Shown here: in pieces, positions 13,173 through 52,852 of the stretch
Position numbering within the stretch: the stretch's first letter is position 1
Layout of the letters: each line of letters opens with the position of its first letter
Notes under the pieces: model-generated
What the model was told of the DNA's origin: nothing
What the model saw: only the letters and a program-made list of their open reading frames with translations
The model's database searches: none
Translations under genes and position numbers: made by a program
DNA from: a virus
IMG/VR virus record: IMGVR_UViG_3300032073_000043
Location: 1 to 52,974 of that record
Length of the DNA stretch: 52,974 bases
Direction: 5' to 3' (one strand)

Positions 13173-13209
13173 ATTTTTATTAGTTTTAAGTTATTATTAT
13201 AATTACACA

Positions 13210-13527
13210 TTATTTGCTTGATTCAAAGATTTCACTACCAACATCATATAGTTCACAAGCTGTGGTAGCATCGTTTTTCATTTTAACCTCAGCAAAGTAA
13301 CCTCTTATTGAGGAAGTGTTACCTCTACTATCTTTACTAAATAGTATAAAGTCACTGGAAGTAGGTCTAGTAACTAAACCACCTATATTACAACTCACGC
13401 TAGTTTCAGTAACGGCTGTAACCGCACCCATTTGCACTATAGTACCACTAGTGTTTTGATAATAAGCCGTATCACCAGTTTGTACTGAATCTTGTATGTG
13501 CGGAAATGTCATTGTTATATTTGGCAT
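13210..13527 (-). CDS. Small beta-rich virion protein (105 aa)
   Basis: A beta-strand-rich protein with alternating hydrophobic and Thr/Ser residues (MPNITMTFPHIQDSVQTGDTAYYQ, GTIVQMGAVTAVTETSVSCNIGG, SSIRGYFAEVKMKND). There is no membrane segment or motif I can name. It lies 10 bases after the nozzle gene and before the gp14-like gene, so a tail or neck accessory role is plausible. Confidence 0.6.
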   Translation of the reverse strand: MPNITMTFPHIQDSVQTGDTAYYQNTSGTIVQMGAVTAVTETSVSCNIGGLVTRPTSSDFILFSKDSRGNTSSIRGYFAEVKMKNDATTACELYDVGSEIFESSK

Positions 13528-27674: not shown

Positions 27675-29879
27675 TTAATCTATTAGTTTTGAGTGCATAC
27701 CTTTGTTTTTATATCTTGATATGTTTATGTTTAGTTTTTGTTTTTTTATGTCTGCATGCGGTCTATATAAATGTCTGTTACAAGCCATTATAGCTAATCC
27801 CGAACTTATTGCAGCATCGTATTTTGTTCTGTTATTTATATCAAACTTAGCCCAGTCTTGCAATGTTTCATTAAAATATAAATCACCGTGGGATCCATCT
27901 CTCTTTTTACCAACGTGATCTTGTATATACATTTCAATAGCAGCAGCGTGAGCTTGCTTAATATCTTCACTTGAGTTTGGTATACCACCTACTTCTTTTT
28001 CAGCTGTGGACAACTTGTTCCAAGTTCTATCAGGTCTATTCATAGAATAACCTCTGTAACCTCGCCTTTTTAAATAATACAATAGACGTGGTTTATTATT
28101 TTCTGCTAGTATAGGCATCCCGTAAAACACAAGTGCCATTAGAACGTCCTCAAAGAAGATCTCAGCAGTCTGAGGTCTAGCTATATACTCTAAAAAGAAA
28201 GAGTTTGGAGGACAATCTTCCATACTAAATTTTGTTAACCCGTGCAAAGCACCTTTAGATCCTCTACCATCAACAGTACCAGATATATCATAAGAGTCAC
28301 ATCCAAATGAACCCATGTGTTCGTTAGCAGGGTATTTAATTCCATTTTTTATTATATGTCTATTCTGTAATTCAAACTTAGGTGTCCAGCTAACCTTAAA
28401 CCTACCTTTTGAATCTGGGTAAAATATAACTTTAGTATCTTTAATACCGTTAACCCATTGAAAATTACCTTTAGTTAATGGCGCATTTAGCTCTTCGTTA
28501 TAATCTATTTGCTCGTATATTTTCGCTAAATTAAATATACTGTTTTGTGTTTCATCTCTAAAAGCGTGCTCTTCAGTTCTAGGAAATTGCCTATAAAATT
28601 CATTTAAAGCATCTCCATCATTTTTTAAGCCGTCGACTTCGTTTTGCCAGTGTTCGATGATACCTGTATCGATATATTCTCCATAAGGCCCTTTAACTTC
28701 TTCTTCTGGTGTGTCAAATACAGGTAGTCCATAAGAATCAATGAATCCTTCGTAGTTCCATTCCATAGGAATGAACAGACTATAGAGTCCTGTACTTGTT
28801 TGTCCATTTCTGTTTCTTTTTGTAACATCTGACCCATTATACAGTTTTTTAAAGTTATCACCTCCTTTGTCAAGAGCGTTGCTCGTTGATCCCATCATGC
28901 ACTTACCAATAATTCTACTACCTAACCTAAGACATGTTTTTGTAACACGCCAATTGTTTAATATATTATTAGGTCTTTCCCATTTACCACTTTCATCGTG
29001 AGCTAATAGTTTTAACTTTTCACCATCATAACTATTGTCACCTGTATTTTTCCAGTCAATAGTAGTGTCTAATCCTTGTAAATCATGATCGTCACTACCT
29101 GCTTCTATCTTTCTTCTAGTTAATTTAGAAGCTGGAACTCTGTATGCTAATTCTGTTTTAGGTCGATCCATACCATCTTGAATCGGTTTAAAAAAGAAAG
29201 GGTAGTTGACTGATATAGGTACAACCTTGTCAGTAAACATTTTTTTAGCATCTGGTCCAGTTTTAGATAATATTCCTAATCTAGCATCACTTGATATTGT
29301 AGCCATATTTACTAGCTCTCCTGATGCCATAAATGAAAACCCAGATCTTCTATTTTTAAGATAACACATACCATAACATCTAGTATCAGCTTTGCAAGCT
29401 TCCCAAAACAAATAAAATAATCTATTTGCTTCTCTAAAATCAGGTTGACCAACATCAATTTTTGACCACTGTAGATACATATAGTGAGTACCGGTTATGT
29501 AAGTAGCTTTTCCTTTGTTATAAAACCAAAAACCTTCTTCTCTTCTTTTAAACTCTTTTTCTATGTAATCTATATGTTTTTCCTTAAAATCTTTTGGTAT
29601 ATCTTTCCAGTCAAATATAGTTTTTAAACGAGATAAAGCTTTAGGTTGTGGTGTAACCTCCCACTTATCACTTTTAAATTTATTAATATCAGTTGCCTGC
29701 GGCAATGCTATTTTCAAATTCTGTATGCTATACACCTCACCGATCTTACCGGTTTTACTTATAACAACTAGATCATGCTCTTTGTTATAACCATACTTCC
29801 AGGCTTTTTTTTTGTTAAGCCTTTTTATGGTGTTTATTTTAATAGGTTCTATAACCTTATATAAACTTTGCTCGTACAT
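27675..29879 (-). CDS. terL: Terminase large subunit
   Basis: A 734-aa packaging motor. The ATPase has a Walker A-like KNRRSGFS (175-182), Walker B LKLLAHDE (Asp295, Glu296) and coupling motif GSTSN (330-334). The RuvC-like nuclease follows with GSFGCDSYD (Asp528, Asp531) and the acidic segment YIARPQTAEIFFED. The stop is 4 bases before the portal start. The start (29879) shares one base with the stop of the TerS candidate, so the two are coupled. No split, intein or frameshift is seen. Confidence 0.9.
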   Translation of the reverse strand: MYEQSLYKVIEPIKINTIKRLNKKKAWKYGYNKEHDLVVISKTGKIGEVYSIQNLKIALPQATDINKFKSDKWEVTPQPKALSRLKTIFDWKDIPKDFKEKHIDYIEKEFKRREEGFWFYNKGKATYITGTHYMYLQWSKIDVGQPDFREANRLFYLFWEACKADTRCYGMCYLKNRRSGFSFMASGELVNMATISSDARLGILSKTGPDAKKMFTDKVVPISVNYPFFFKPIQDGMDRPKTELAYRVPASKLTRRKIEAGSDDHDLQGLDTTIDWKNTGDNSYDGEKLKLLAHDESGKWERPNNILNNWRVTKTCLRLGSRIIGKCMMGSTSNALDKGGDNFKKLYNGSDVTKRNRNGQTSTGLYSLFIPMEWNYEGFIDSYGLPVFDTPEEEVKGPYGEYIDTGIIEHWQNEVDGLKNDGDALNEFYRQFPRTEEHAFRDETQNSIFNLAKIYEQIDYNEELNAPLTKGNFQWVNGIKDTKVIFYPDSKGRFKVSWTPKFELQNRHIIKNGIKYPANEHMGSFGCDSYDISGTVDGRGSKGALHGLTKFSMEDCPPNSFFLEYIARPQTAEIFFEDVLMALVFYGMPILAENNKPRLLYYLKRRGYRGYSMNRPDRTWNKLSTAEKEVGGIPNSSEDIKQAHAAAIEMYIQDHVGKKRDGSHGDLYFNETLQDWAKFDINNRTKYDAAISSGLAIMACNRHLYRPHADIKKQKLNINISRYKNKGMHSKLID

Positions 29880-32117: not shown

Positions 32118-32143
32118 ATTTGTTATAGTACTATAGTCACATA
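32118..32143 (-). promoter_or_regulatory. Late promoter-like element upstream of the glycosyltransferase
   Basis: On the minus strand, TATGTGACTATAGTACTAT is followed by AACAAAT, ending 14 bases before the ATG at 32104. It matches the element at 47496-47522 almost base for base. Both lie just before the first gene of a leftward operon. CTATAG also recalls T7-type promoters. Confidence 0.5.
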
Positions 32144-32160
32144 TTATTACGCTTTTCTAA

Positions 32161-34302
32161 CTACTCGTTATTATCTTGAAACGGATTAGTACCTAATTGC
32201 CCAAATTGATTAAAGTTAACATAGTTACCAGTGTTAGTTGTATACGTAGTCGTATACGTAGTTGTTGTATTAAAACCAGTGCTTGTAGCTGTAGACGTAT
32301 TAAAAACTGTTGACGTTGATGTGTTATAAACAGTAACGTGATTTGTATTAGTTGTAGTACTTGTGTTAAAAGTAGTAGTCGTGTTAAACGTAGTTACTGT
32401 AGCTGTAGTAGTGTTGTAAACAGTACTTGTCGATCTAGTTGTTGCTGTATTTGTACTAGTGTTATAAACTGTTGTTGTCGCTCTAGTTGTTGCTGTGTTT
32501 GTAGACGTGTTAAAAGCTGTTATAGTTATTGTTTGCGTTGTTGTAGATGTATTGTAAACAGTTGTATAAACAGTAGTCGTATCTCTTGCTGTACTTTTTA
32601 GAACTGTGTTTCTAGATGTACTAACAGTTGTGTTTCTAGATGTAGTAGTGCTAGTATTATAAGTTGTTGTATAAGTAGTGTTTGTACTAAATACAGTTGA
32701 TGTACTAGTATTAAACACAGTACTAGTTGCTCTACTTGTAGATACAACCGTTGTTGTACTAGTATTATAATGAGTTATTGTTATAGTACTAGTTGATCTA
32801 GTTGTATTTCTATACGTAGCGGCTTGAACATCAGTTAACCTCATTGTTTGTTGAGACGTAGTGTATACTGTATTAGTACTAGTATTAAACGTAGTTGTTG
32901 TGGATTTACTGGTATTAAAAGTTGTAGTCGTACTGTACGTAGTTAAAGTAGACGTATTATAAACTGTAGTAGTTGCTCTAGACGTTGATATTGTAGTTGC
33001 TCTACTAGTTAATGTAGCAGTACTAGTATTAAAAGTAGTACTTGTTGTGTATACCGTAGTTGTAGATCTAGATTCTATTGTAGCTCTACTAGTTGCAAAT
33101 GTAGTTACAGTTGATCTAGTGGTAGACACAGTAGTGGTTCTTTGTTCTGTTGTTACCGTGCTAGTATTAAAAGTGGTTGTAGTAGAGTATGCTGTTGTTG
33201 TAGCTCTTTGCTCTGTTGTTGATCTACTTGTAGCAAAAGTAGTCGTTGTCGAGAATACTGTAGTTGTGCTAGTGTTAAACACAGTTATAGTAGCTGTACT
33301 AGTGTTAAAAGCTGTGTTAGTAGTATATGTCGTAGTGGTAGACCTTGAGGTTGCTGTACTTCTAGTTGTAGTAAATGTTGTTGTAGTTGACTTACTAGTT
33401 ATAGTACTTGTGTTAAATGTTGTGCTAGTAGTGTATACTGTTACTGTACTTCTTTGCTCAATTGTAGCTCTTGATGTAGCAAAGGTAGTTGTAGTTGACT
33501 TAGTAGTTACAGTTGATGTATTGAAAGCCGTATTAGTAGTATATACCGTGGTTGTACTTCTAGATTCAATTGTAACTCTATCCGTAGCGAAAGTAGTAGT
33601 TGTAGCTCTAGACGTTAGCGTCGAAGTATTAAAAGCAGTTGTAGTCGTAAACGTCGTAGTAGTAGACCTACTTTCTATAGTGTTTCTGCTAGTAGCAAAA
33701 GTAGTAGTTGTAGCTCTAGTAGTATTAAATGTTGTTGTTGTTGTATACAGTGTAGTAGTACTAAACGCGGTAATTGTATTACGGCTAGTTGCTATTACTG
33801 TTGCTCTACTCGTTGATGTAGTTCTACTAGTAGCAAAAGTTGTTGTAGTAGCTCTAGATGTGGCAAACGTAGTTGTAGTAGACCTAGTAGTGTTAAATGT
33901 AGTTGTTGTATTAAATACAGTCGTGGTACTAGTATTAAATAATGTAGTTGTACTTTTACTAGTATTAAACGTAGTTAAAGTTGTGTAGGTAGTGGTAGTA
34001 GACCTACTTTCAGTTGTAGCTCTAGACGTATTAAAAGTAGTAGTCGTAGTATACGTAGTCGTAGTAGATCTACTTTCAGTCGTAGCTCTAGACGTATTAA
34101 ACGTCGTAGCTGTAGTGTATGTAGTAGTAGTATTTCTAGACTCAAGTGTGCTTCTACTTGTAGAAAAATAAGAAATATAAGTAGTGTTAAAAGACGTTGT
34201 AGTGTTTCTACTTTCAGCGGTGCTTCTTGACGTACCTCTACTCGTGTTTCTTATAGTAGATTGTGATGTGCTTCTTGATGTGCTTCTTGTAGTATTAGGC
34301 AT
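32161..34302 (-). CDS. Thr/Ser-rich repeat fibre protein B (713 aa)
   Basis: Apart from a short N-terminal leader and the last 25 residues, the protein is built of short units such as FNTSRATTESRS, TTTTYTTTTT, FATSRNTI and YNTSTATV. Thr and Ser make up most residues, with Asn/Arg/Ala at fixed places, aromatic Phe/Tyr about every 8-12 residues, almost no Asp, and no Cys, Trp or Gly. Units of 22 residues repeat at DNA level (66 nt). The C terminus is NYVNFNQFGQLGTNPFQDN. There is no signal peptide. It is probably a long thin tail fibre or beta-solenoid, paralogous to the 871-aa fibre upstream but lacking its S74 end. The repeats may be heavily modified. Confidence 0.7.
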   Translation of the reverse strand: MPNTTRSTSRSTSQSTIRNTSRGTSRSTAESRNTTTSFNTTYISYFSTSRSTLESRNTTTTYTTATTFNTSRATTESRSTTTTYTTTTTFNTSRATTESRSTTTTYTTLTTFNTSKSTTTLFNTSTTTVFNTTTTFNTTRSTTTTFATSRATTTTFATSRTTSTSRATVIATSRNTITAFSTTTLYTTTTTFNTTRATTTTFATSRNTIESRSTTTTFTTTTAFNTSTLTSRATTTTFATDRVTIESRSTTTVYTTNTAFNTSTVTTKSTTTTFATSRATIEQRSTVTVYTTSTTFNTSTITSKSTTTTFTTTRSTATSRSTTTTYTTNTAFNTSTATITVFNTSTTTVFSTTTTFATSRSTTEQRATTTAYSTTTTFNTSTVTTEQRTTTVSTTRSTVTTFATSRATIESRSTTTVYTTSTTFNTSTATLTSRATTISTSRATTTVYNTSTLTTYSTTTTFNTSKSTTTTFNTSTNTVYTTSQQTMRLTDVQAATYRNTTRSTSTITITHYNTSTTTVVSTSRATSTVFNTSTSTVFSTNTTYTTTYNTSTTTSRNTTVSTSRNTVLKSTARDTTTVYTTVYNTSTTTQTITITAFNTSTNTATTRATTTVYNTSTNTATTRSTSTVYNTTTATVTTFNTTTTFNTSTTTNTNHVTVYNTSTSTVFNTSTATSTGFNTTTTYTTTYTTNTGNYVNFNQFGQLGTNPFQDNNE
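34001..34132 (-). repeat. 66-nt tandem duplication in fibre B
   Basis: Blocks starting at 34001 and 34067 are almost the same (GACCTACTTTCAG / GATCTACTTTCAG and onward) with few, mainly synonymous changes. They encode the 22-residue unit [YF]T..TTFNTSRATTESRS. This is one of the clearer recent duplications in the repeat shaft. Confidence 0.7.
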
Positions 34303-34868: not shown

Positions 34869-37480
34869 GATTTAATTGTTTTAAATTCTACATCTAACAT
34901 ACTATAGTCAACCCACTTACTGTTTCTGTGGTTTAGTACAGCTCCATCAATATGTTCAACTTCATCAGCCATAACACCTTGCCATACACCAGCAAATTTA
35001 TCAGCATATATACCTTTTTTAAATTCAAAGCTATATATATTTATACCTTTATTAGATTTGCCTATTAACTTAATATGTTTTTTCAATTTTCTGTCTGAAG
35101 GAAAACCACCACCACCGCCACATGAGGTAGGAGCTCCCGCAACCTGACCACCACTGATTATTTTATATTTATGTGTTGGACTAAATGCAATAGCATCTTG
35201 AGCTCCATACCATGCTCCAGCCAATGCTGATGTACCAGCAGAGTTTGTATACACATAGCTATTTGCTTGGGGTAATCCACTAGAAACGTTTGTTCCATAA
35301 TATGTAGCTCCCATAAACGCATTACACGCACCATTAAAATTACTTGCAGCTGTTGAGCTAAAAGCCGTAACGCTAGCCGCTGTGTTAAACGTTGTTATAT
35401 ACGTTGTGTTAAATGTTGTTGTATATGTTGTAGCGTAAGTTGTGTTAAACGATGTTGTAGTATTGTAAGCTGTTGTTGTTGACTTGCTAGTTCCTCTAGT
35501 TGTTGATATACCAGTTGTAAACGTAGTTGTAGTGCTATAAGTTGTAGTTGTACTTCTACTTTCAGTTGTGTTTCTACTAGTGTTAAACGTCGTGGTAGTT
35601 GTATAAGTAGTCGTAGTAGATCTGCTCTCTGTTGTTGCTCTACTTGTATTAAATGTAGTTGTTGTCGTATATGTTGTCGTTGTACTCCTAGATTCAGTAG
35701 TGTTTCTTGAAGTAGCAAATGTAGTAGTTGTTGATCTACTAGTTGCTATTGTAGTTACCCTAGATGTTGATGTTGATCTAGATGTAGCAAACGTTGTAGT
35801 TGTTGATCTAGTAGTGTTAAACGTAGTCGTCGTGCTTCTACTAGTGTTAAACGTAGTAGATGTATTAAATACAGTTATAGTAGATGTGTTAAACGCGGTA
35901 GTTGTTGATCTACTTGTTGTTGTGCTTCTACTTTCAGCTGTTGATCTACTTGTAGCAAAAGTAGTTGTTGTAGTTGTACTAGTGTTAAATACTGTGTTTG
36001 TTGTGTATGTTGTAGTTGTAGATCTATTTGTTGTAGTTGTTCTAGACGTAGCAATAGTAGTTGTAAATATAGTAGTTGTTGATTTACTAGTATTAAACAC
36101 TGTGATAGTTGCATAAACTGTATTTGTTGTTCTACTCTCTGTGGTATTTTTTGATGTCGCAAATGTTGTTGTAAAAGCGGTAGTCGTAGTTTTAGTAGTA
36201 TTAAAAACAGTACTAGTGGAATATGCGGTTGTCGTACTTCTAGATTCTGTAGTGTTTCTACTAGTGGCAAATGTAGTTGTGTATACGGTTGTAGTAGTTC
36301 TAGATGTATTAAATACTGTCGTAGTAGCAAACACTGTAGTTGTACTTCGACTTTCAGTAGTATTTCTTGACGTTGCAAAAGTTGTCGTAGTTGATCTACT
36401 AGTTGATATAGTAGTAGCTCTACTTGTTGTAGTTGCTTTACTAGTGTTGAAAGTAGTAGTCGTAGTATAAACAGTTGTAGTAGACCTTTGCTCTATTGTT
36501 GCTCTAGACGTGTTAAAAGTTGTTGTCGTTGAATAAACTGTAGTAGTACTGGTGTTGAATGTTGTTGTTGTACTTTTAGTAGTATTAAAAACAGTAGTAG
36601 TAGAATACGCGGTAGTAGTGTTTCTTGATTCAGTAGTATTTCTGCTCGTTGCAAAAGTTGTTGTAGTACTAAATATAGTTGTTGTAGACGTATTAAATAC
36701 TGTAGTTGTACTTTTACTAGTGCTAACTGTTGTATTTCTACTTTCTAAAGTTGTTTTACTAGTAGCGAAAGTTGTTGTTGTGCTTCTGCTAGTGCTAATA
36801 GTTGTATTTCTATTAGTAGTTGTACTAGTGTTGTATATAGTAGCTGTTGATTTTAACGTATTTCCTAAAAACGTGTTGTATGTAGTTGTGTAAGTAGTAG
36901 TAGTGTTTCTAGCCGTATCTACAGTTGTAACAGTAGATGTATTAAAAGTAGTAGTAGTATTTCTACTAGTGCTAACAACTGTACTTCTTGATGTAGATGT
37001 GGTTTTAACCGTTACGGTAGACGTATTAAACGCTGTGTTAAAAGAAGTTAACGTACTAGTATTAAAAGTTGTAGTCGTGCTAGTATTAAATACAGTTATA
37101 GTAATTGTTGACGTTATTGTCGACGTATTGTAATTTGTAGTATAAACTGTAGTTGTATTTCTACTAGTTGCAATTGTAGTTGATGTTAAAAAAGTAGTAG
37201 TAGTATTTTTACTTGTTGAAACAACTGTTGATGTAGAAAATGTTGTTGTTGTAGATCTATTAGTAGATATAGTAGTGTTTGTACTTCTACTAGTAGCTGT
37301 AGCTCTAGAAGTGCTGTAAGCAGTAGTTGTAGACTTAACTGTTGTTGTACTAGTATTATAAGCTGTTGTTGTACTAGTGTTATACGTAGTAGTCGTACTC
37401 TTACTGGTTCCTGTAGATTTTGTTGTTGATCTACTGGTTGACTTACTGAAAAAATTAATTTTACTCCAGAGAAAGTTCAT
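34865..37480 (-). CDS. Thr/Ser-rich repeat tail fibre with S74 chaperone domain (871 aa)
   Basis: Residues 13-700 are Thr/Ser-dominated short units (RSTTTTFATS, TSRATTESRS, TTTYTTTTTFN) with regular aromatic residues and Arg or Asn spacing. Residues 700-795 form a different small domain (CNAFMGATYYG, VYTNSAGTSALAGAWYG), with a glycine-rich loop. The C terminus is an intramolecular chaperone of the peptidase S74 type: SDRKLKKHIKLIG, with Ser795 and Lys800 in the catalytic S-x4-K spacing, then IYSFEFK, GVMADEVEHIDGAVLNH. The S74 domain directs trimerisation and cleaves itself off in endosialidases and fibres. The protein should therefore be a trimeric tail fibre, very unusual in its shaft. Confidence 0.82.
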   Translation of the reverse strand: MNFLWSKINFFSKSTSRSTTKSTGTSKSTTTTYNTSTTTAYNTSTTTVKSTTTAYSTSRATATSRSTNTTISTNRSTTTTFSTSTVVSTSKNTTTTFLTSTTIATSRNTTTVYTTNYNTSTITSTITITVFNTSTTTTFNTSTLTSFNTAFNTSTVTVKTTSTSRSTVVSTSRNTTTTFNTSTVTTVDTARNTTTTYTTTYNTFLGNTLKSTATIYNTSTTTNRNTTISTSRSTTTTFATSKTTLESRNTTVSTSKSTTTVFNTSTTTIFSTTTTFATSRNTTESRNTTTAYSTTTVFNTTKSTTTTFNTSTTTVYSTTTTFNTSRATIEQRSTTTVYTTTTTFNTSKATTTSRATTISTSRSTTTTFATSRNTTESRSTTTVFATTTVFNTSRTTTTVYTTTFATSRNTTESRSTTTAYSTSTVFNTTKTTTTAFTTTFATSKNTTESRTTNTVYATITVFNTSKSTTTIFTTTIATSRTTTTNRSTTTTYTTNTVFNTSTTTTTTFATSRSTAESRSTTTSRSTTTAFNTSTITVFNTSTTFNTSRSTTTTFNTTRSTTTTFATSRSTSTSRVTTIATSRSTTTTFATSRNTTESRSTTTTYTTTTTFNTSRATTESRSTTTTYTTTTTFNTSRNTTESRSTTTTYSTTTTFTTGISTTRGTSKSTTTAYNTTTSFNTTYATTYTTTFNTTYITTFNTAASVTAFSSTAASNFNGACNAFMGATYYGTNVSSGLPQANSYVYTNSAGTSALAGAWYGAQDAIAFSPTHKYKIISGGQVAGAPTSCGGGGGFPSDRKLKKHIKLIGKSNKGINIYSFEFKKGIYADKFAGVWQGVMADEVEHIDGAVLNHRNSKWVDYSMLDVEFKTIKS

Positions 37481-47252: not shown

Positions 47253-47486
47253 TTACTCTTTCTTCGTACCGTGTCCTCTGTTTCCACGGTTCGCTTTTAT
47301 ACTGGTAAATCTTCTGGTTTTGTGGTCATAGTCTTTACCTTTTATGTTTTTACCTGCTTTCTTAGCTGCTCTTCTCTTACGTTGGTTTTCAGCTCTCATC
47401 TTCTCTCTTCTTCGTGTGTTGGCAGCTGCTAGGTCTCTTTTCTTTTTAGCCGCTGCAGCTCTTGCGGACAATTTCTGCTTAGGCAT
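47253..47486 (-). CDS. Basic Lys/Arg/Ala-rich small protein (77 aa)
   Basis: The first gene of the leftward block. The sequence is almost all basic or Ala (MPKQKLSARAAAAKKKRDLAAANTRRREKMRAENQRKRRAAKKAGKNIKG) and ends NRGNRGHGTKKE. There is a promoter-like element 10 bases before the start. It may be DNA-binding or head-associated. The general style recurs in small conserved proteins of marine phages. Confidence 0.65.
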   Translation of the reverse strand: MPKQKLSARAAAAKKKRDLAAANTRRREKMRAENQRKRRAAKKAGKNIKGKDYDHKTRRFTSIKANRGNRGHGTKKE

Positions 47487-47495
47487 AGTTTATGT

Positions 47496-47522
47496 ATTTG
47501 TTGATACTAGTATAATCACATA
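47496..47522 (-). promoter_or_regulatory. Late promoter-like element upstream of the first leftward gene
   Basis: On the minus strand TATGTGATTATACTAGTAT-C-AACAAAT, ending 10 bases before the ATG at 47486. It matches the 32118-32143 element in nearly every position. A related, partly palindromic TAGTATACTA lies further upstream (about 47560-47575). It probably drives the whole leftward block. Confidence 0.55.
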
Positions 47523-47778
47523 AAGTAAAGTAAAGTTAAAAGTGACACTTGCCTGTTACTAGTATACTATTAGAGGCTAATGTCATAAAAAAAAATGTAA
47601 GATATTTTGGGGAGTTGTGTTGCCCCCCTCCCCTATACCACCCTGCCAAAATGGAAAGTCCTTTTATTTTACCGGGCCCCACCTGTATAATCCGTTTGCC
47701 GCCGTATTTCCTATGCTAACCGTGTACAACCAGACAACTAAACTCGCTTCGCTACATAGTTTTCTATATACATTTCAC
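47523..47778. other. Intergenic region, left part, with hairpin
   Basis: No gene is visible here. A hairpin GGGGAG (47609-47614)/CTCCCC (47628-47633) with a 13-base loop sits in a C/G-rich patch unlike the AT-rich flanks. The unusual CCCCCC and ACCGGGCCCC runs suggest a structural role (replication, packaging or termination), which I cannot assign. Confidence 0.45.
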
Positions 47779-47874
47779 GTATGACACAATGACATATGTA
47801 TGACACAATGACATGACAAACTTATTTATTATTGTATGACAACGTGACACAGTGCGCAATGACATAATGACATA
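47779..47874 (+). repeat. TGACA iteron-like direct repeats
   Basis: GTATGACACAATGACAT occurs perfectly at 47779-47795 and 47798-47814 (19-base period). Related units follow at 47834-47850 and 47858-47874. At least eight TGACA pentamers lie on the plus strand in under 100 bases. Such closely spaced repeats between divergent blocks suit a replication origin (initiator sites) or an operator. Confidence 0.7.
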
Positions 47875-47910
47875 TTCATTTACTAAACAATACATATACT
47901 TTTACAAACC

Positions 47911-47934
47911 AAATACGATACACATTCGATTATA
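47911..47934 (+). promoter_or_regulatory. AAATACGA-N8-CGATWATA motif, copy 1
   Basis: The motif's halves (AAATACGA and CGATTATA) are separated by exactly eight bases. It starts 62 bases before the ATG of the first rightward gene (47973), the longest leader among the copies. All six copies are on the plus strand and have the same spacing. I read them as phage-specific promoters. Confidence 0.75.
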
Positions 47935-47972
47935 CTTATGTAACTAATTAATAATAAATAAATATAATAACT

Positions 47973-48200
47973 ATGAGTAATTTAATCACTAAAAGATTTG
48001 TTGTAAGACAATCACTAATCGGAAAAAATGTAACATTCGAATTCACTAACAAAAAAGGTGACAAGATAATTTACAATCACGACAAAGTATTTTCAATAAT
48101 GAAAGATACACTAACTAACTTACCATGTTGGTTAAAGTACAAGTCGTACACTGCTACTAATAACATTCCGTTAATAGTAAGAGGTAAAGAGTTAGTATAA
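47973..48200 (+). CDS. First rightward gene, 75-aa basic protein
   Basis: MSNLITKRFVVRQSLIGKNVTFEFTNKKGDKIIYNHDKVFSIMKDTLTNLPCWLKYKSYTATNNIPLIVRGKELV. A small basic alpha/beta protein with no motif I recognise and no signal peptide. It is followed by non-coding, hairpin-rich sequence. Small early genes of this type often act on the host (inference). Confidence 0.6.
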   Translation: MSNLITKRFVVRQSLIGKNVTFEFTNKKGDKIIYNHDKVFSIMKDTLTNLPCWLKYKSYTATNNIPLIVRGKELV

Positions 48201-48346
48201 CTTTAACTTCACTGTGAGTTCCACTTGTTTCTAACAGTATAAATTGCGAACAAGTAAAGACATAATGGTTAACGTGAGTTCGATTCTCACCATGTCTACT
48301 AACTAAGGTAACAGAGTGTTATCAGTAACTAATTAAATATAATAAT
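48201..48346 (+). ncRNA. Structured non-coding stretch with tRNA-like minihelix
   Basis: No ORF is found. A 7-bp stem ACTTGTT (48223-48229)/AACAAGT (48249-48255) comes first. Three bases later a minihelix begins: AGACAT (48258-48263) pairs with ATGTCT (48292-48297), enclosing GTGAG-TTCGATT-CTCAC, which is a complete T-arm with TTCGATT loop. The linker between acceptor-like and T-arm-like stems is only 10 bases, so D and anticodon arms are missing. It reads as a tRNA acceptor/T-arm half rather than a tRNA. Confidence 0.5.
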
Positions 48347-48466
48347 ATGGCACATAGAAATACATATCTACTAAAAATCTCTTTCAGATTATACAAAAAG
48401 CATTGGAATGAACTAACTTATGATGAGCGAGCTCACGTAACTGATATCTACTATGACTTCTACTAA
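48347..48466 (+). CDS. Small hypothetical protein (39 aa)
   Basis: ATG at 48347 reads MAHRNTYLLKISFRLYKKHWNELTYDERAHVTDIYYDFY and stops at 48466. It has an A/T-rich leader (AATAAT) like the other early genes and sits between the structured stretch and motif copy 2. A helical, charged protein of unknown function. Confidence 0.5.
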   Translation: MAHRNTYLLKISFRLYKKHWNELTYDERAHVTDIYYDFY

Positions 48467-48472
48467 CAAACT

Positions 48473-48496
48473 AAATACGACAACTAATCGATAATA
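48473..48496 (+). promoter_or_regulatory. AAATACGA-N8-CGATWATA motif, copy 2
   Basis: AAATACGA-CAACTAAT-CGATAATA, followed after 22 bases by the ATG at 48519 of the 64-aa membrane protein. It is intergenic here and does not overlap the preceding stop codon. Confidence 0.75.
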
Positions 48497-48518
48497 TAAA
48501 CGTAATAAATAAATAACT

Positions 48519-48713
48519 ATGAGTAAAATTAAATTCGTACAGAATAAAGTGTACAACTATGTAAAAGGTAAATCAGTAACAGAACTAGCTTTTGAGCTAT
48601 TAGCCTTCGGAGTATTAATGCCAATGGCGGTTTCAGGAATACTATTCATGATAGTAGGTTTACTAACAGGTGAGATCGATGCTTCTAATGCTAACTTCGG
48701 AATATATAACTAA
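48519..48713 (+). CDS. Small membrane protein (64 aa)
   Basis: The N terminus MSKIKFVQNKVYNYVKGKSVTELAFELLAFGVLMPMAVSGILFMIVGLLTGEIDASNANFGIYN has one long hydrophobic segment (AFELLAFGVLMPMAVSGILFMIVGLL). A single or double-pass inner-membrane peptide, perhaps affecting host membrane functions. Its stop TAA overlaps the next start in TAATG. Confidence 0.6.
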   Translation: MSKIKFVQNKVYNYVKGKSVTELAFELLAFGVLMPMAVSGILFMIVGLLTGEIDASNANFGIYN

Positions 48714-48850
48714 TGAAGTGGGTATTGACGTGTGAAAACGGTAAAGAAATCGATATGACTTACTATATCGGTAAACAAATGGAAAATAAAATAACTAGAC
48801 AAGATGTTCTTGACAGAATAAAGTTCTACAAATCAACTAATAAACTATGA
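48713..48850 (+). CDS. Small hypothetical protein (45 aa)
   Basis: ATG at 48713, inside TAATG with the preceding stop, reads MKWVLTCENGKEIDMTYYIGKQMENKITRQDVLDRIKFYKSTNKL and stops at 48850. The stop overlaps the next ATG as ATGA. The tight chain of overlaps supports real translation. Confidence 0.55.
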   Translation: MKWVLTCENGKEIDMTYYIGKQMENKITRQDVLDRIKFYKSTNKL

Positions 48851-48981
48851 GAAAATTTAAACACGAAAAAGTATGGTCATTCAGTGACGAGCATGTGATT
48901 GATGGTATGATATACTCTCACGATCTACAAAAATATGTAACAATTGAAGAATATACTGATGTACACTATGGCACGCTCTAG
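48847..48981 (+). CDS. Small hypothetical protein (44 aa)
   Basis: ATGA overlap with the preceding gene at 48847. Reads MRKFKHEKVWSFSDEHVIDGMIYSHDLQKYVTIEEYTDVHYGTL and stops at a TAG (48979-48981). The TAG stop shows that amber is not recoded here. The gene ends inside the next gene (14-base overlap). Confidence 0.5.
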   Translation: MRKFKHEKVWSFSDEHVIDGMIYSHDLQKYVTIEEYTDVHYGTL

Positions 48982-49087
48982 AAAACATACAAGTAAAAAA
49001 ATACTAAAGCTAACTCGTCAAGAAATAATGATGATAGAAGATAATTGGTATAGAAAATACAATATAAATACGAATAAAGCACGATAA
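48968..49087 (+). CDS. Small basic hypothetical protein (39 aa)
   Basis: Starts 48968 and reads MARSRKHTSKKILKLTRQEIMMIEDNWYRKYNINTNKAR, ending in a TAA that is itself part of motif copy 3. Short and basic, and the least certain of the small gene chain, but the overlap pattern and the shared NTNKAR ending support it. Confidence 0.5.
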   Translation: MARSRKHTSKKILKLTRQEIMMIEDNWYRKYNINTNKAR

Positions 49088-49089
49088 TA
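49066..49089 (+). promoter_or_regulatory. AAATACGA-N8-CGATWATA motif, copy 3
   Basis: AAATACGA-ATAAAGCA-CGATAATA overlaps the end of the 39-aa gene (its CGA-TAA is the last codon plus stop). The next ATG is at 49104, 14 bases further on. Confidence 0.75.
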
Positions 49090-49103
49090 TAATAAATTAA
49101 AAT

Positions 49104-49244
49104 ATGAAATCATTAAAAATACTTACTTATGACGTCTTTGATCAACCTAAAAATATAAGGCTAGGTGACAAAGTAGTAACAAGAATACCTTACGTAAAAG
49201 AATATACTAACTACTGTAAAATCGGCGATCACTACTATGCATAA
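49104..49244 (+). CDS. Small hypothetical protein (46 aa)
   Basis: ATG at 49104 reads MKSLKILTYDVFDQPKNIRLGDKVVTRIPYVKEYTNYCKIGDHYYA and stops at 49244. Overlaps the next ATG (49237). Has a phage-like beta/helical pattern, but no recognised function. Confidence 0.5.
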   Translation: MKSLKILTYDVFDQPKNIRLGDKVVTRIPYVKEYTNYCKIGDHYYA

Positions 49245-49467
49245 TTCAGAATTTAAAGATTATCCAGCAGATCAAATTGCTGCTAAACTCAAAGAAGTAA
49301 CAGATTTCGAAACTAAGTACGGTGAATCTACACGCACTATTGCATACAAAAAATGGTGTACAGACTATGATTATCGTAAAAGAGAATGGCAGTTCAGACA
49401 AAGTGTCGCTGCATCTATAAAACCTAATGTAAACTATACTAAACCTTACTACAATGACCAAATCTAA
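49237..49467 (+). CDS. Hypothetical protein (76 aa)
   Basis: Reads MHNSEFKDYPADQIAAKLKEVTDFETKYGESTRTIAYKKWCTDYDYRKREWQFRQSVAASIKPNVNYTKPYYNDQI, a charged helical protein with a Trp/Arg-rich middle. It overlaps the next gene by 14 bases (49454), so translation is coupled. Unknown function. Confidence 0.6.
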   Translation: MHNSEFKDYPADQIAAKLKEVTDFETKYGESTRTIAYKKWCTDYDYRKREWQFRQSVAASIKPNVNYTKPYYNDQI

Positions 49468-49876
49468 ATACACTTGGAGACAAGAACAACAAATGTTAGA
49501 AGACTCGTTTGCAAGAGCATTACTAGTCGAGTATAATATTAAAGAAATAACTACACAAAGACAAGCAATAAATGGCACAAGAGAGTTTGAATTTCCTGTA
49601 CCATCAAGAAGAAGATATAAAAACGGTGAAAATTTAAGACTTGCTGTGTTTAAAACTGGCTATGTTAGAAACCAAAACTCTTGTTCATCTAATTATCAAC
49701 TAAATCCTACATATAAACGTGAGAAAAGGTGGGTATTTTTAGAAGGTGACAAAACTATAACTAAAAAATATACAACTATATCAAGAGCTAAAATATATAG
49801 CGGTATGGCAAGACTTAAATTTATGTTAGAATTTTATTTAAGAAATTACAAAACAAATACGAAAATAGCACGATAA
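49454..49876 (+). CDS. Hypothetical basic protein (140 aa)
   Basis: The sequence MTKSKYTWRQEQQMLEDSFARALLVEYNIKEITTQRQ begins with a helical region, then REFEFPVPSRRRYKNGENLRLAVFKTGYVRNQNSCSSNYQLNPTYKREKRWVFLEGDKTITKKY. It is basic and beta-rich, with no known motif. The C terminus is a helix ending NTKIAR, with the stop codon in motif copy 4. Confidence 0.6.
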   Translation: MTKSKYTWRQEQQMLEDSFARALLVEYNIKEITTQRQAINGTREFEFPVPSRRRYKNGENLRLAVFKTGYVRNQNSCSSNYQLNPTYKREKRWVFLEGDKTITKKYTTISRAKIYSGMARLKFMLEFYLRNYKTNTKIAR

Positions 49877-49878
49877 TA
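49855..49878 (+). promoter_or_regulatory. AAATACGA-N8-CGATWATA motif, copy 4
   Basis: AAATACGA-AAATAGCA-CGATAATA overlaps the end of the 140-aa gene in the same frame as copy 3 (CGA-TAA). The ATG of the zinc-finger gene lies only 7 bases after the motif, so a promoter reading predicts a leaderless or near-leaderless message. Confidence 0.75.
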
Positions 49879-49885
49879 TATTTGT

Positions 49886-50098
49886 ATGAAAAAATGTAAA
49901 TGTAATAATACAATACCTCCACAGCGTTTAGCACTAGGTTATACCTCTTGCGTCGAATGTAGCACTACCGAGCCATATGGCTGTATTGCTGTCACTTACC
50001 ACAAAACCGGTAATACCATTCAGATTATGCCGAAAGAACAGGCGAAACGTATCAGAAAGCTAGGCGCTCGCAGAGGTTATGGCACATGTCTAAAATAA
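49886..50098 (+). CDS. DksA/TraR-like zinc-finger small protein (70 aa)
   Basis: MKKCKCNNTIPPQRLALGYTSCVECSTTEPYGCIAVTYHKTGNTIQIMPKEQAKRIRKLGARRGYGTCLK has CKC...CVEC, four cysteines of a C4 zinc finger as in the DksA/TraR family, then a YHKTGNTIQIM segment that I know from other phages. TraR-type proteins bind RNA polymerase and change its promoter selectivity, so it may help shift host transcription. The family name is by motif; there is no coiled-coil domain as in DksA. Confidence 0.65.
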   Translation: MKKCKCNNTIPPQRLALGYTSCVECSTTEPYGCIAVTYHKTGNTIQIMPKEQAKRIRKLGARRGYGTCLK

Positions 50099-50111
50099 TA
50101 AATATAAAACT

Positions 50112-50321
50112 ATGAGTAAAACTAAAGAATTTGATATGTTAGCTGATAAAGCTACACATGAAGCAGTAGAAGAAATATACAGAATATGCGAGTGGACATT
50201 AACCGGTAGCGATGCTAAGTCATTACTAAGCTCTACACCAGATATAAACGAAGCTCATAGTTACTTGATGAAGCTCGTTATCGGTAAACTCGCTAATAAA
50301 TACTTAAATATATATGAGTGA
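50112..50321 (+). CDS. Small acidic helical protein (69 aa)
   Basis: MSKTKEFDMLADKATHEAVEEIYRICEWTLTGSDAKSLLSSTPDINEAHSYLMKLVIGKLANKYLNIYE, a helical protein with no known motif. It starts 13 bases after the zinc-finger gene and overlaps the next gene by 8 bases. Confidence 0.6.
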   Translation: MSKTKEFDMLADKATHEAVEEIYRICEWTLTGSDAKSLLSSTPDINEAHSYLMKLVIGKLANKYLNIYE

Positions 50322-50490
50322 TTCAGTAAAAAAATGGTTTGAGATGCAAGAAGAAAAAGAGCACAAAGACGTGCTATACACACATGCGCCAAACAGAAAA
50401 GCATACAGAATACTAATAGATTATGATATAAAAGATATTAGAGAAGCTGTAAAGCTATATGATAAAACAAGAAACCCGCTAGACGAGTAA
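50314..50490 (+). CDS. Small charged protein (58 aa)
   Basis: ATG at 50314 overlaps the stop of the previous gene. Reads MSDSVKKWFEMQEEKEHKDVLYTHAPNRKAYRILIDYDIKDIREAVKLYDKTRNPLDE and stops at 50490. Unknown function. It is followed by more than 600 bases with no gene. Confidence 0.55.
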   Translation: MSDSVKKWFEMQEEKEHKDVLYTHAPNRKAYRILIDYDIKDIREAVKLYDKTRNPLDE

Positions 50491-50743
50491 CTTAATTAGG
50501 TATGATTAAAGGCGTAATTCCTTAGCGGGATGTGAGAAACGGCTCGATGATTACACATAAGTGAATAGCTAGCAATCGAGGTGGCGGCATACAGGTCACG
50601 TTAGTTGAAGGGTAAGAACAAACGGTTGGAACGGTTGAAAGAGTACCGGATGGCTCCGTGAAGTTTATAACTTCAACAAAACAGAAAGTGTGGATAAATG
50701 ACAATACTAGTTAACTACCTGTCCACAACTGGTGCCTCGAAAT
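50491..50743 (+). ncRNA. Gene-free, GC-richer stretch with hairpins (left part of RNA array)
   Basis: No ORF with a good start is found on either strand. Hairpins include CTCGAT (50543-50548)/ATCGAG (50575-50580), CGGA-TGGC-TCCG, GAAGTT-TAT-AACTTC and TGTGGA (50689-50694)/TCCACA (50722-50727), the last enclosing the palindrome TAGTTAACTA. The higher GC against AT-rich neighbours and the many complementary segments suggest a structured transcript. No known RNA family is recognised. Confidence 0.5.
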
Positions 50744-50829
50744 GGGAGTGATAAGGTAAGTGAGACAGTATCTTCGCCGACTATGGCAAGACAGTATCTC
50801 AAACGGCGGTTCGACTCCGCCCACTTCCA
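50744..50829 (+). ncRNA. tRNA-like unit 1 (acceptor stem and T-arm, non-canonical core)
   Basis: GGGAGTG (50744-50750) pairs with CACTTCC (50822-50828) as a 7-bp acceptor with one G-U pair, and GGCGG-TTCGACT-CCGCC is a perfect T-arm. The 54 bases between do not form a D or anticodon arm. They hold an 11-base direct repeat AGACAGTATCT (50763 and 50789) and a hairpin CTT-GCC/GGC-AAG. At 86 nt with its single-base 3' discriminator it has a class II tRNA length, but I could not place an anticodon. Confidence 0.55.
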
Positions 50830-50834
50830 CTAAC

Positions 50835-50922
50835 AGAGAGATGGCAGATATGCAGAGATATACTTGTCGACAAAACAACGGCGGATTTACGTAAGCGAAG
50901 TACTTCGTGGGCACATCTCTCT
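50835..50922 (+). ncRNA. Structured RNA unit 2 (9-bp closing stem)
   Basis: AGAGAGATG (50835-50843) pairs fully with CATCTCTCT (50914-50922). Inside are palindromes TTGTCGACAA and CGAAGTACTTCG. No TTCGA-type T-loop is present, so it is not a tRNA. It is 88 nt and separated from unit 1 by only 5 bases. Confidence 0.5.
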
Positions 50923-50930
50923 TAATATAA

Positions 50931-51009
50931 TACCGGCTTAACAGTAAATCGACGTCTCGGCTTCCTTGAGGTATCAGTTGTACAAAGCCAGTTGTAGTGA
51001 CAGCCGGTA
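50931..51009 (+). ncRNA. Structured RNA unit 3 (8-bp closing stem)
   Basis: TACCGGCT (50931-50938) pairs exactly with AGCCGGTA (51002-51009). Inside GGCTT and AAGCC form a second stem. It is 79 nt and ends 7 bases before the tRNA-Met. The spacing between consecutive units is 5, 8 and 7 bases, as in a processed array. Confidence 0.5.
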
Positions 51010-51016
51010 ACTTATT

Positions 51017-51089
51017 TGCGGTATAGAGCAGTGGTCAGCTCGCATGGCTCATAACCATGAGGTCGTTGGTTCGAATCCTTCTGCCGCAA
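51017..51089 (+). tRNA. tRNA-Met (anticodon CAT)
   Basis: Acceptor TGCGGTA/TGCCGCA (7 bp, one G-U), D-arm GAGC...GCTC, anticodon arm CATGG-CTCATAA-CCATG with CAT at 51050-51052, and T-loop TTCGAAT. The T-stem GTTGG/CCTTC has two mismatches, which is unusual. No CCA is encoded. The C-A-T anticodon could also be an elongator Met, initiator, or Ile after modification. It ends the RNA array and is followed by motif copy 5. Confidence 0.75.
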
Positions 51090-51095
51090 CAAAAC

Positions 51096-51119
51096 AAATA
51101 CGAATGCTAAACGATTATA
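51096..51119 (+). promoter_or_regulatory. AAATACGA-N8-CGATWATA motif, copy 5
   Basis: AAATACGA-ATGCTAAA-CGATTATA, 6 bases after the tRNA and 27 bases before the ATG at 51147. It lies wholly in non-coding DNA, so the motif does not depend on the coding overlap seen at copies 3, 4 and 6. Confidence 0.75.
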
Positions 51120-51146
51120 TAAATGTAATTAAAAATAAATAAAACT

Positions 51147-51386
51147 ATGACAAAAATTAAAACCGTCTACGACAAACTATTGCCCGACGTTAAAACAAGT
51201 TTAAAAGCTAGTGCTAGAAAATACGATAGCGCTAAAAGACTAAAGTATACGCTTATGTCAAAAATGATGTGGTCGGAACTAAATGTCTATGAAGTTAGAG
51301 ATATATTAACCTACGGTGACTTAAACAGTTGGGAACTAGATTGCTACAGCTTTATGTACGGTGAAAAAATAATTGATAAATCATGA
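51147..51386 (+). CDS. Small basic hypothetical protein (79 aa)
   Basis: MTKIKTVYDKLLPDVKTSLKASARKYDSAKRLKYTLMSKMMWSELNVYEVRDILTYGDLNSWELDCYSFMYGEKIIDKS, with a basic N-terminal half and a more acidic, aromatic C-terminal half. No motif is recognised. Its stop overlaps the next start (ATGA at 51383). Confidence 0.6.
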   Translation: MTKIKTVYDKLLPDVKTSLKASARKYDSAKRLKYTLMSKMMWSELNVYEVRDILTYGDLNSWELDCYSFMYGEKIIDKS

Positions 51387-51844
51387 AAAAATATATAACA
51401 GACGAGATCATAGAAAAAGAAATGATCAAAAGAGGTTTACCAACTGACGGTGACAAGATACAAGATGAAGAGTTTGTGCAACAAGCAGTATTAAAATACT
51501 ATGATGTAGAAATTACTAATGACTACACACAAAACGCAGACTATTATGTTTACCCTGAATCAACGGCAGATGGCTACGAAGTTTATATTGCTACGTATGA
51601 TGATAGAAATATATGCGTAGGTGAACATGTACATTACTATGATAGTAATTTAGCTACAGAATTAGAAGATGCAATAAGAGGTATGGGTCGTATAGATTCT
51701 GTTATATATGTAGCGGATGATTTTATAGATGAGTACTGGTACTCAGATATGTTCAGCGAAATATACCAAGGTATTTGTGAAATAACAGAACAAGAAATTA
51801 AAGATATACTTATAGATGAAGGATACGAAGAGCAACCAATCTAA
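51383..51844 (+). CDS. Highly acidic protein (153 aa), possible DNA mimic
   Basis: Asp and Glu number about 38, against about 10 Lys/Arg (for example YDDRNICVGEHVHYYDSNLATELEDAIRGMG and VADDFIDEYWYSDMFSEIYQGICEITEQEIKD). Such strong acidity in a small early protein is typical of anti-restriction DNA mimics such as T7 Ocr, though no sequence similarity to them is visible to me. It overlaps the previous gene by four bases and the next by 29. Confidence 0.6.
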   Translation: MKKYITDEIIEKEMIKRGLPTDGDKIQDEEFVQQAVLKYYDVEITNDYTQNADYYVYPESTADGYEVYIATYDDRNICVGEHVHYYDSNLATELEDAIRGMGRIDSVIYVADDFIDEYWYSDMFSEIYQGICEITEQEIKDILIDEGYEEQPI

Positions 51845-52106
51845 ACCAAAATGGTTTAACGGCGCCTGGTACAGCTCACCAGAAGAGGTAACAAATCCAT
51901 TTAGTGGTGAAAGTTGCCTATTAACCGGAGCAGAAGCTAGTATGTATGACTTTATAATGGGTGCTACTTATACTATAGAAGTAACGTTTGATAACGACTC
52001 AGATGTAGAAGATCCATATATAACTAAACTAAGAAAAGAATTAATTAAAGGTATGGACTGGTTTAGATCAGAAAATCCTAAAGCTTATATGAAATTACTA
52101 GATTAA
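51816..52106 (+). CDS. Conserved phage hypothetical protein (96 aa)
   Basis: Starts MKDTKSNQSKPKWFNGAWYSSPEEVTNPFSGESCLLTGAEASMYDFIMGATY; the FSGESCLLTGAEASMYDFIMG part is a pattern I know from small phage proteins with no assigned role. The C terminus is helical (ITKLRKELIKGMDWFRSENPKAYMKLLD). The start overlaps the acidic gene by 29 bases. Confidence 0.6.
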   Translation: MKDTKSNQSKPKWFNGAWYSSPEEVTNPFSGESCLLTGAEASMYDFIMGATYTIEVTFDNDSDVEDPYITKLRKELIKGMDWFRSENPKAYMKLLD

Positions 52107-52107
52107 T

Positions 52108-52575
52108 ATGGCAACAAGAAATGTAACAATGGTAGTACCAAGGTCGACTGCGGAAGACAATGACCTAGGCTTTGCTTGTAACCCAAGTGTAGTCAGTGAC
52201 GATAGCTATGTAAATATGTATTTACATCACGATGGTTACCCTGAGTATAGAGCTGTAGAGCTTGCTAACTGGGTTAAGCATATGCAAGAGGTAAAAGGTT
52301 TTACAAGCTTTGGTGATGGATCAAGAATAGCATCACACTTAGTAAAAGACTTTCATTACAATAGCCAATACTTATATCCTTCTCATGACAGAATAGATCA
52401 TCATTATACTTATATTATATGGACAGGTAAACCTGACGTGTTTATAACTTGTTGGAATCAATATACTAATGAGTGTGTATTTGTAAACAAAGTAGATGAT
52501 GTGATCAAAAAATGGTCTAGAGATGAATATGAATATACTAACTATAACAAATTAAATACGAATGAAGTACGATAA
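52108..52575 (+). CDS. Conserved phage hypothetical protein (155 aa)
   Basis: MATRNVTMVVPRSTAEDNDLGFACNPSVVSDDSYVNMYLHHDGYPEYRAVELANWVKHMQ..., with the YLHHDGYPEY segment and GDGSRIASHLVKDFHYNSQYLYPSHDRIDHHYTYIIWTGKPDVFITCWN. The HHDGYPEY motif is widely seen in phage hypotheticals. The C terminus ends NTNEVR, in the same position and frame as the other two motif-linked stops. Function unknown. Confidence 0.65.
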   Translation: MATRNVTMVVPRSTAEDNDLGFACNPSVVSDDSYVNMYLHHDGYPEYRAVELANWVKHMQEVKGFTSFGDGSRIASHLVKDFHYNSQYLYPSHDRIDHHYTYIIWTGKPDVFITCWNQYTNECVFVNKVDDVIKKWSRDEYEYTNYNKLNTNEVR

Positions 52576-52577
52576 TA
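52554..52577 (+). promoter_or_regulatory. AAATACGA-N8-CGATWATA motif, copy 6
   Basis: AAATACGA-ATGAAGTA-CGATAATA. The last part encodes the end of the 155-aa gene (CGA-TAA) and the N8 holds the ATG (52562) of the next gene. A promoter reading would need a downstream start for it, for example the ATG at 52589. Confidence 0.7.
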
Positions 52578-52852
52578 TAGATGACGATATGTTAGATACA
52601 ATTGCAGACTTAGTACTAGATAAACTTCTTTACAGAATGAAGAACGAGGTTCATGCTATGTCTCCTATGTCTATTAACGAAATAATAAAAGGTCAAATAC
52701 CTTTTAAAGAAACAGACGAAGAGTTTCTTATATCTGAGTTAGCTAGGCTAATGACACTATTAAATTTGTACGAAGACAAAGAGCAGTACAGAAAAGCTGC
52801 AATAATAAAAAACAAACTAAATATAATACAAAAAAAACTAGACAACCTATGA
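52562..52852 (+). CDS. Hypothetical protein (96 aa; or 87 aa from 52589)
   Basis: MKYDNIDDDMLDTIADLVLDKLLYRMKNEVHAMSPMSINEIIKGQIPFKETDEEFLISELARLMTLLNLYEDKEQYRKAAIIKNKLNIIQKKLDNL, a helical protein with UVR/EF-like C-terminal helix LARLMTLLNLYEDKEQYRKAAIIKNKL, as in small phage-encoded subunits. The start at 52562 overlaps the upstream gene by 14 bases. The stop overlaps the ligase start (ATGA). Confidence 0.6.
   Translation: MKYDNIDDDMLDTIADLVLDKLLYRMKNEVHAMSPMSINEIIKGQIPFKETDEEFLISELARLMTLLNLYEDKEQYRKAAIIKNKLNIIQKKLDNL

Follow-up and report, generated by a model that had tools for sequence, protein, structure and literature searches.

The window analysed here (the complete IMG/VR record IMGVR_UViG_3300032073_000043, a linear fragment of 52,974 bases from a virus) carries six copies of a directional sequence element, hereafter class 1, in its plus-strand gene block. 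We consider it quite probable that this element belongs to a transcription cascade in which class-1 early promoters would lead to a phage sigma factor, and the sigma factor to a second set of promoters (class 2), in marine phages probably infecting Bacteroidetes. In such a cascade, class-1 promoters would switch on the small early genes with which the plus-strand block begins, and the sigma gene too in several relatives; the sigma factor made from the early region would then direct the host core RNA polymerase to class-2 promoters ahead of the recombination/replication operon and of the late genes, which lie on the opposite strand. Observed directly were the sequences with their strand, spacing, positions and conservation, and the sigma gene in relatives. 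The cascade would show, at the level of sequence, when genes are expressed in a widespread and mostly uncultured phage group, and name a phage sigma factor along with its likely target. It also raises the question of what starts transcription on promoters that the main host sigma factor should not recognise, and the presence of class 1 on one strand offers a usable marker of early regions and of clade members.

Class 1 is a directional element with fixed geometry

An initial annotation, made from the letters of the window alone, had listed six 24-base copies on the plus strand with eight bases between their halves, and all six proved exact in coordinates, strand and spacing (Table 1). Under a first-order Markov model, 1.3e-5 exact matches are expected on the plus strand and 6.5e-5 on the minus strand of the window, the latter holding 0 exact copies. 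With up to 3 mismatches, 10 matches were found versus 2.1 ± 1.5 in shuffled sequences, none of which reached 10. The late block is free of copies, as had been noted: no late-strand match in the window exceeds 8 bits with a 41-position class-1 matrix. One minus-strand copy with two mismatches (47686-47709) resembled a late promoter, and was rejected when it fell below threshold with the full matrix.

Because ACAA precedes AAATACGA by exactly three bases in all six window copies, the element must be longer than 24 bp. Both flanks are conserved (TT-ACAAA(C)(T) 5′ of the core and ATATAA at the core end), as measured on sites picked by the 24-base core alone in contigs with at least two copies, and the full element of about 40 bp reads TTACAAAC(T)-AAATACGA-N8-CGATAATATAA, followed by a purine at position 30. 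This purine, counted from the first A of AAATACGA, occurs in 96% of sites and is likely the transcription start; with +1 placed there, AAATACGA would occupy -29 to -22 and CGATAATATA -13 to -4, with ACAAAC at roughly -35. Spacing within the element is invariant across 16 genomes, with a gap of 9 between ACGA and GATAATA in 100 sites (99 plus, 1 minus) and 0 sites for every other gap from 4 to 14. Where variants occur at positions 17 and 7, the copies of one genome tend to change together: all six copies of genome G001 have G at position 17, and four of the five copies of G035 have A at position 7. Shared variants of this kind would fit co-evolution with whatever protein reads the element, a soft point to which we return below.

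Repeated sites with a fixed distance between half-sites could also serve as replication iterons or be bound by a repressor or activator as operators, and an operator for early genes had been among the initial proposals. The two CG steps of class 1 (CGA...CGA) are separated by 11 bp, i.e., one helical turn, as would suit such a role, and an operator-like palindrome is found in the early region of MW202828, a related phage. However, the class-1 consensus is without dyad symmetry and occurs in a single orientation, its copies are scattered over several kilobases and for the most part immediately precede a gene, and a purine follows at a fixed downstream position. Operators or iterons are thereby left as a highly improbable explanation.

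Class 1 marks the early regions of an uncultured phage clade

To judge by its terminase, the window phage is related to Elemovirus, Pervagoviridae and Pachyviridae, with MW202828 (64%) and the elemo phages (45%) as named relatives and Panino, phi38:1, Calle, phi13:2 and Gundel at greater distance. Its late block, on the minus strand, encodes a portal protein (phrog_6547), the terminase (phrog_6681) and a crAss-type muzzle domain (PF25729); the early block begins on the plus strand, and the window ends within a DNA ligase gene. A motif scan, as the initial annotation had proposed, found that class 1 recurs in relatives: at least 119 stretches in viral contigs have exact copies, many of them several, and a terminase akin to that of the window is encoded in 42 of 45 motif contigs, with full-length matches 71-92% identical. 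In a looser search, the copies in contigs with several of them were almost all on one strand, opposite to the terminase, while a reversed-pattern control was near zero.

For a finer view, 15 long relative contigs were merged from their pieces, oriented alike and scanned with the 41-position matrix. All matches above 8 bits in the window and these relatives are on the early strand, and none was found on the late strand, with a position-reversed matrix, or in MW202828. The initial annotation had named equal frequency within genes and on the other strand as the pattern that would speak against a promoter; besides the strand bias above 8 bits, just 12 of 126 sites fall within plus-strand open reading frames (ORFs), where 64% of random positions do, and an ORF start is found no more than 40 bases away for 55% of sites, compared with 10% of random positions. 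Class 1 is, in other words, a directional element a short distance upstream of gene starts.

Within the window, the distances to the next ATG given by the initial annotation are correct for copies 1-5. Copy 6, listed there as an exception because of its distance, is not a real one, since the listed ORF start (52562) falls within the motif and an in-frame ATG follows at 52590, 7 bases past the predicted start; the gene served by copy 6, which has relatives in 14 genomes, probably starts at this ATG. The ORF behind copy 4 adjoins the predicted start, so that its transcript would be nearly leaderless. Copy 5 sits directly 3′ of a tRNA-Met gene and its ORF has relatives in 15 genomes, and the 46-amino-acid ORF behind copy 3 has a close homologue in genome G049 (54271-54411).

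Isolated weak matches aside, class 1 is missing in MW202828, elemoA, phi38:1, Panino, phi13:2, Gundel, Calle and phi14:2. Cellular genomes are essentially free of it: a search of 84,980 bacterial and archaeal genomes gave no match to a 21-base form, and two matches to a 19-base form, namely one phage contig of the clade and one chance site. No description of the motif was found in the open-access literature searched. Taken together, the restriction to one strand and to the early block, the fixed geometry, the position upstream of gene starts, the fixed purine and the clade-wide conservation argue that class 1 is very probably the early promoter family of a large uncultured marine phage clade. 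Hosts of this clade are probably Bacteroidetes: one of its class-1-bearing contigs, with eight sites in 8 kb, was co-binned with a Bacteroidetes genome, which hints at such hosts but falls short of proof.

No counterpart of class 1 emerged from repeat searches in the named relatives, phi14:2 included; what they did reveal is a palindrome in MW202828, which is the closest of the named relatives and has neither the sigma gene nor class-1 sites. This perfect 16-bp palindrome (GTGTCGTTAACGACAC) is present in about 15 copies (14 positions listed) at 43745-55154 of MW202828 (loci L009/L010), in the early region and in several cases just upstream of genes, and is operator-like.

A phage sigma factor and a second class of motif

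The initial annotation had suggested looking for a sigma or RNA polymerase gene, and the first was found: all but one of the 15 long relatives have an early-strand gene for a sigma-70-family protein of about 250-260 amino acids. These 14 proteins each share 53% identity or more with the sequence that heads their alignment and contain the Pfam domains Sigma70_r2 and Sigma70_r4, with phrog_351 assigned in 14 of 14. Relatives of the window phage carry, beyond the point corresponding to the window end, a phage sigma gene such as a phiEco32-like cascade would require; tests of eight named phages detected no sigma. The nearest solved structure is sigma-28/FliA (1rp3), and the RVSQLK stretch of sigma region 4 is common to FliA. 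Of 123 class-1 sites in relatives, 118 precede the sigma gene and 5 follow it; in three relatives a site is found 29-31 bp upstream of it, and in a fourth 125 bp upstream.

Class 2, which is distinct from class 1 and located before later genes, was found through spaced-word counts and inspection, and has the form TAAA-N15-GTAATTATA. Of 14 genomes, 13 have it immediately behind the sigma gene. A matrix trained on these 13 post-sigma sites alone gave, at a threshold of 14 bits, 18 intergenic late-strand sites versus 3 with the reversed matrix. Seven class-2 sites precede the gene family of window positions 12519-13172, including that of the window, where two further candidates were marked (Table 1). 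Unseeded expectation-maximisation and unseeded matrix iteration were also tried for a late motif, and rejected as they locked onto hairpin-like or A-rich sequence.

Sigma-28 promoters have the TAAA-N15 spacing, and the -35 element of FliA is TAAA. We provisionally assign class 2 to the phage sigma because of this spacing and the RVSQLK stretch. The order of the genes points the same way, as almost every class-1 site precedes the sigma gene while class 2 follows sigma and precedes late genes, and the phage sigma is on these sequence grounds more likely to read class 2 than class 1. Alternatively, class 1 may be read by the phage's own sigma, either in a self-activating loop or with sigma carried in the virion, and class 2 by something else. 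In favour of this, sigma and class 1 co-occur (all 14 sigma-bearing long relatives have class-1 sites, and the eight named phages tested lack both), class 1 precedes the sigma gene in four relatives at the distances given above, and the class-1 CGATAA box is similar to the -10 element of sigma-28 promoters, sigma-28/FliA being the nearest solved sigma. Yet with class-1 sites mostly ahead of the sigma gene, something else must start transcription first, and the FliA -35 sequence matches class 2 rather than class 1, so that we regard self-reading by sigma as unlikely. Of the initial proposal of a promoter for a phage polymerase or sigma factor, the promoter is retained and a sigma factor exists in relatives, whereas the pairing of that sigma with class 1 is disfavoured.

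A candidate partner regulator lies next to sigma. It is a 202-amino-acid protein with a C-terminal helix-turn-helix (G049, 59964-60572 as oriented; locus L216, 7386-7994, minus strand), encoded just before sigma, overlapping the sigma gene start in G049 and conserved in 14 genomes. Structure comparison gave no clear structural relative for it.

Candidate readers of class 1

If the phage sigma reads class 2, class 1 needs another reader at time zero. An unmodified host holoenzyme, with an alternative or so far unrecognised host sigma, would be the simplest early strategy, as in most phages, and the geometry is sigma-70-like, with elements near -35 and -10 and a start 6-7 bp downstream. However, sigma-70 promoters tolerate spacing differences of plus or minus one base, while the spacing of class 1 is invariant. 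The mismatch to the Bacteroidetes promoter (TTTG and TAnnTTTG) already noticed by the initial annotation holds for both elements: with +1 at position 30, TAnnTTTG is absent at -12 to -5, where the consensus is GATAATAT. Nor does class 1 fit any of the flavobacterial promoter classes, which comprise TAnnTTTG variants, TAnnTTGY, sigma-54 and the ECF CGT box (PMC9723704). Host-type promoters showed no enrichment between genes and no conserved position in the early block, and the 84,980 genomes gave no exact 21-base match, with the two 19-base matches accounted for above. Reading by the host holoenzyme, which is the early strategy of phiEco32 and 7-11 (PMC8948821), is in our view doubtful, if a serious contender.

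Another candidate is a dedicated RNA polymerase that enters with the virion, like those of N4 and the crAss-like phi14:2, as rigid spacing, high conservation and an immediate-early location are typical of promoters for such enzymes, and the early block has no conserved host-type promoters. Nonetheless, no phage RNA polymerase of the kind the initial annotation had considered was recognised. A phmmer search of 17 genomes gave no match to phi14:2 gp66/gp65, though remote homologues may escape it. The giant virion-type protein of the window (Table 1) was tried as a candidate and is unsupported as a virion RNA polymerase; its relatives are about 2300-4000 amino acids long, with a highly variable N-terminal part and a conserved C-terminus of about 800-820 amino acids, modelled as a HAD-like domain followed by helices (a moderate model, pLDDT 67), for which there was no polymerase match. 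The class-1 strand also forms no N4-type hairpin, with z-scores of -1.4 to 1.2 across the six copies. An N4- or phi14:2-like virion polymerase accordingly appears improbable.

More broadly, the virion may bring its own unrecognised initiation factor or RNA polymerase that reads class 1, a tentative idea under which immediate-early transcription would bypass the host sigma and then pass to the host core with the phage sigma-28-like factor. As class 1 does not look like a host sigma-A promoter, we lean towards a phage-supplied specificity factor as the reader at time zero, with the host holoenzyme a close second.

Several points weigh against the class-1 to class-2 cascade as a whole. Its promoter function, start site, early-to-late order and pairing of sigma with class 2 are all deduced from sequence. 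The sigma gene lies past the window end and was seen in relatives only, so that its presence in the window phage is presumed. The class-1 matrix was trained partly on contigs that it then scanned, and its scores are not independent as training and scanned contigs overlap, although strand and region bias were not built into it. Evidence for class 2 is much thinner than for class 1, and many of the late class-2 sites are orthologous, so that conservation by descent enters the counts. Concerted drift is seen in the N8 spacer as well, i.e., it is not specific to contact positions, which is why the co-evolution argument is soft. Finally, the class-1 reader could be a host holoenzyme used in an unfamiliar way, a virion-borne phage factor, or the phage sigma.

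Comparison with known systems

The closest parallel is with phiEco32 and 7-11, podoviruses in which a phage sigma works with the host core at sigma-specific middle and late promoters (tAATGTAtA and GTAAtg-N16-aCTA), and early promoters are ordinary host sigma-70 promoters, few in number and at one end (PMC8948821). Podovirus type, opposed early and late blocks, a phage sigma and separate early promoters are shared features. Here, in contrast, the early promoters of class 1 are many, spread through the early block and not host-like, and the sigma, in which regions 2 and 4 can be recognised, stands closest to FliA. Class 1 is very probably an early promoter family within a cascade of two steps, as in phiEco32 and 7-11, but with non-host-like early promoters.

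N4 and the crAss-like phi14:2 are similar in that immediate-early transcription in a podovirus would start from dedicated sites, and the muzzle domain PF25729 of the window phage is of crAss type, but neither such a polymerase nor an N4-type hairpin was found here. The sigma-A promoter of Bacteroidetes (TTG / TAnnTTTG) is that of the likely host phylum, yet class 1 contains neither of its elements. T4 middle promoters, in which a MotA box is used by MotA together with host sigma-70, likewise combine a conserved box near -30 with a -10-like element; unlike these, class 1 would be earliest rather than middle, and no MotA-like protein was identified here. The AATACGA string and rigid spacing recall T7-type promoters, but these are without a second box, whereas class 1 is longer and has one, and no T7-like polymerase was seen. 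The virion polymerase of the Thermus phage P23-45 has AT-rich promoters, which lie upstream of pre-early genes and recur in related phages (PMC10770324). An AT-rich motif and two promoter classes for two stages are common to both systems, but P23-45 uses its own RNA polymerases at both stages, whereas the second stage here would probably rely on a phage sigma with the host core.

Other features of the window

Coordinates of the features discussed are given in Table 1.

Table 1 Class-1 copies, candidate class-2 promoters and selected genes of the window
Feature	Position	Strand	Details
Class-1 copy 1	47903..47940, core 47911-47934	+	exact; score 33.9; predicted start G47940; first early gene at 47973
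Class-1 copy 2	48465..48502, core 48473-48496	+	exact; score 48.5; predicted start G48502; ORF at 48519
Class-1 copy 3	49058..49095, core 49066-49089	+	exact; score 35.7; predicted start A49095; 46-amino-acid ORF at 49105
Class-1 copy 4	49847..49884, core 49855-49878	+	exact; score 40.2; predicted start G49884; conserved ORF at 49886
Class-1 copy 5	51088..51125, core 51096-51119	+	exact; score 35.7; predicted start G51125; ORF at 51147
Class-1 copy 6	52546..52583, core 52554-52577	+	exact; score 38.2; predicted start G52583
Candidate class-2 promoter	47503..47544 (approximate; marked 47519)	-	score 16.6; intergenic, 33 bases before first late gene 47253-47486
Candidate class-2 promoter	32124..32165 (approximate; marked 32140)	-	score 11.9, weakest of three; before late gene 31205-32104
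Candidate class-2 promoter	13190..13231 (approximate; marked 13206)	-	score 23.1; before late gene 12519-13172
Early gene block behind class-1 promoters	47973..52852	+	small proteins (function not known), then DNA ligase gene truncated at contig end
Terminase large subunit	27675..29879	-	phrog_6681, E 8.7e-170; served to place phage and orient relatives
Giant virion-type protein, 2397 amino acids	4103..11296	-	tried as candidate virion RNA polymerase, no support

Immediately upstream of the first class-1 site, the window has TGACACAATGACAT-type repeats (47776-47880) that could be an origin or operator. Between the early genes, two tRNA-like plus-strand stretches with T-arm sequences (48222-48304 and 50734-50830), neither called as tRNA by ARAGORN or Rfam, are perhaps decayed tRNA genes. 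On the minus strand, 32161-34302 and 34865-37480 encode proteins of 713 and 871 amino acids built of Thr/Ser-rich repeats, the latter weakly matching the S74 chaperone domain at its C-terminus (E 0.22). Among the relatives, the 70.7-kb contig G030 has a closely similar early region near both ends, with small differences between the two, which perhaps reflects an assembly overlap or a duplication.

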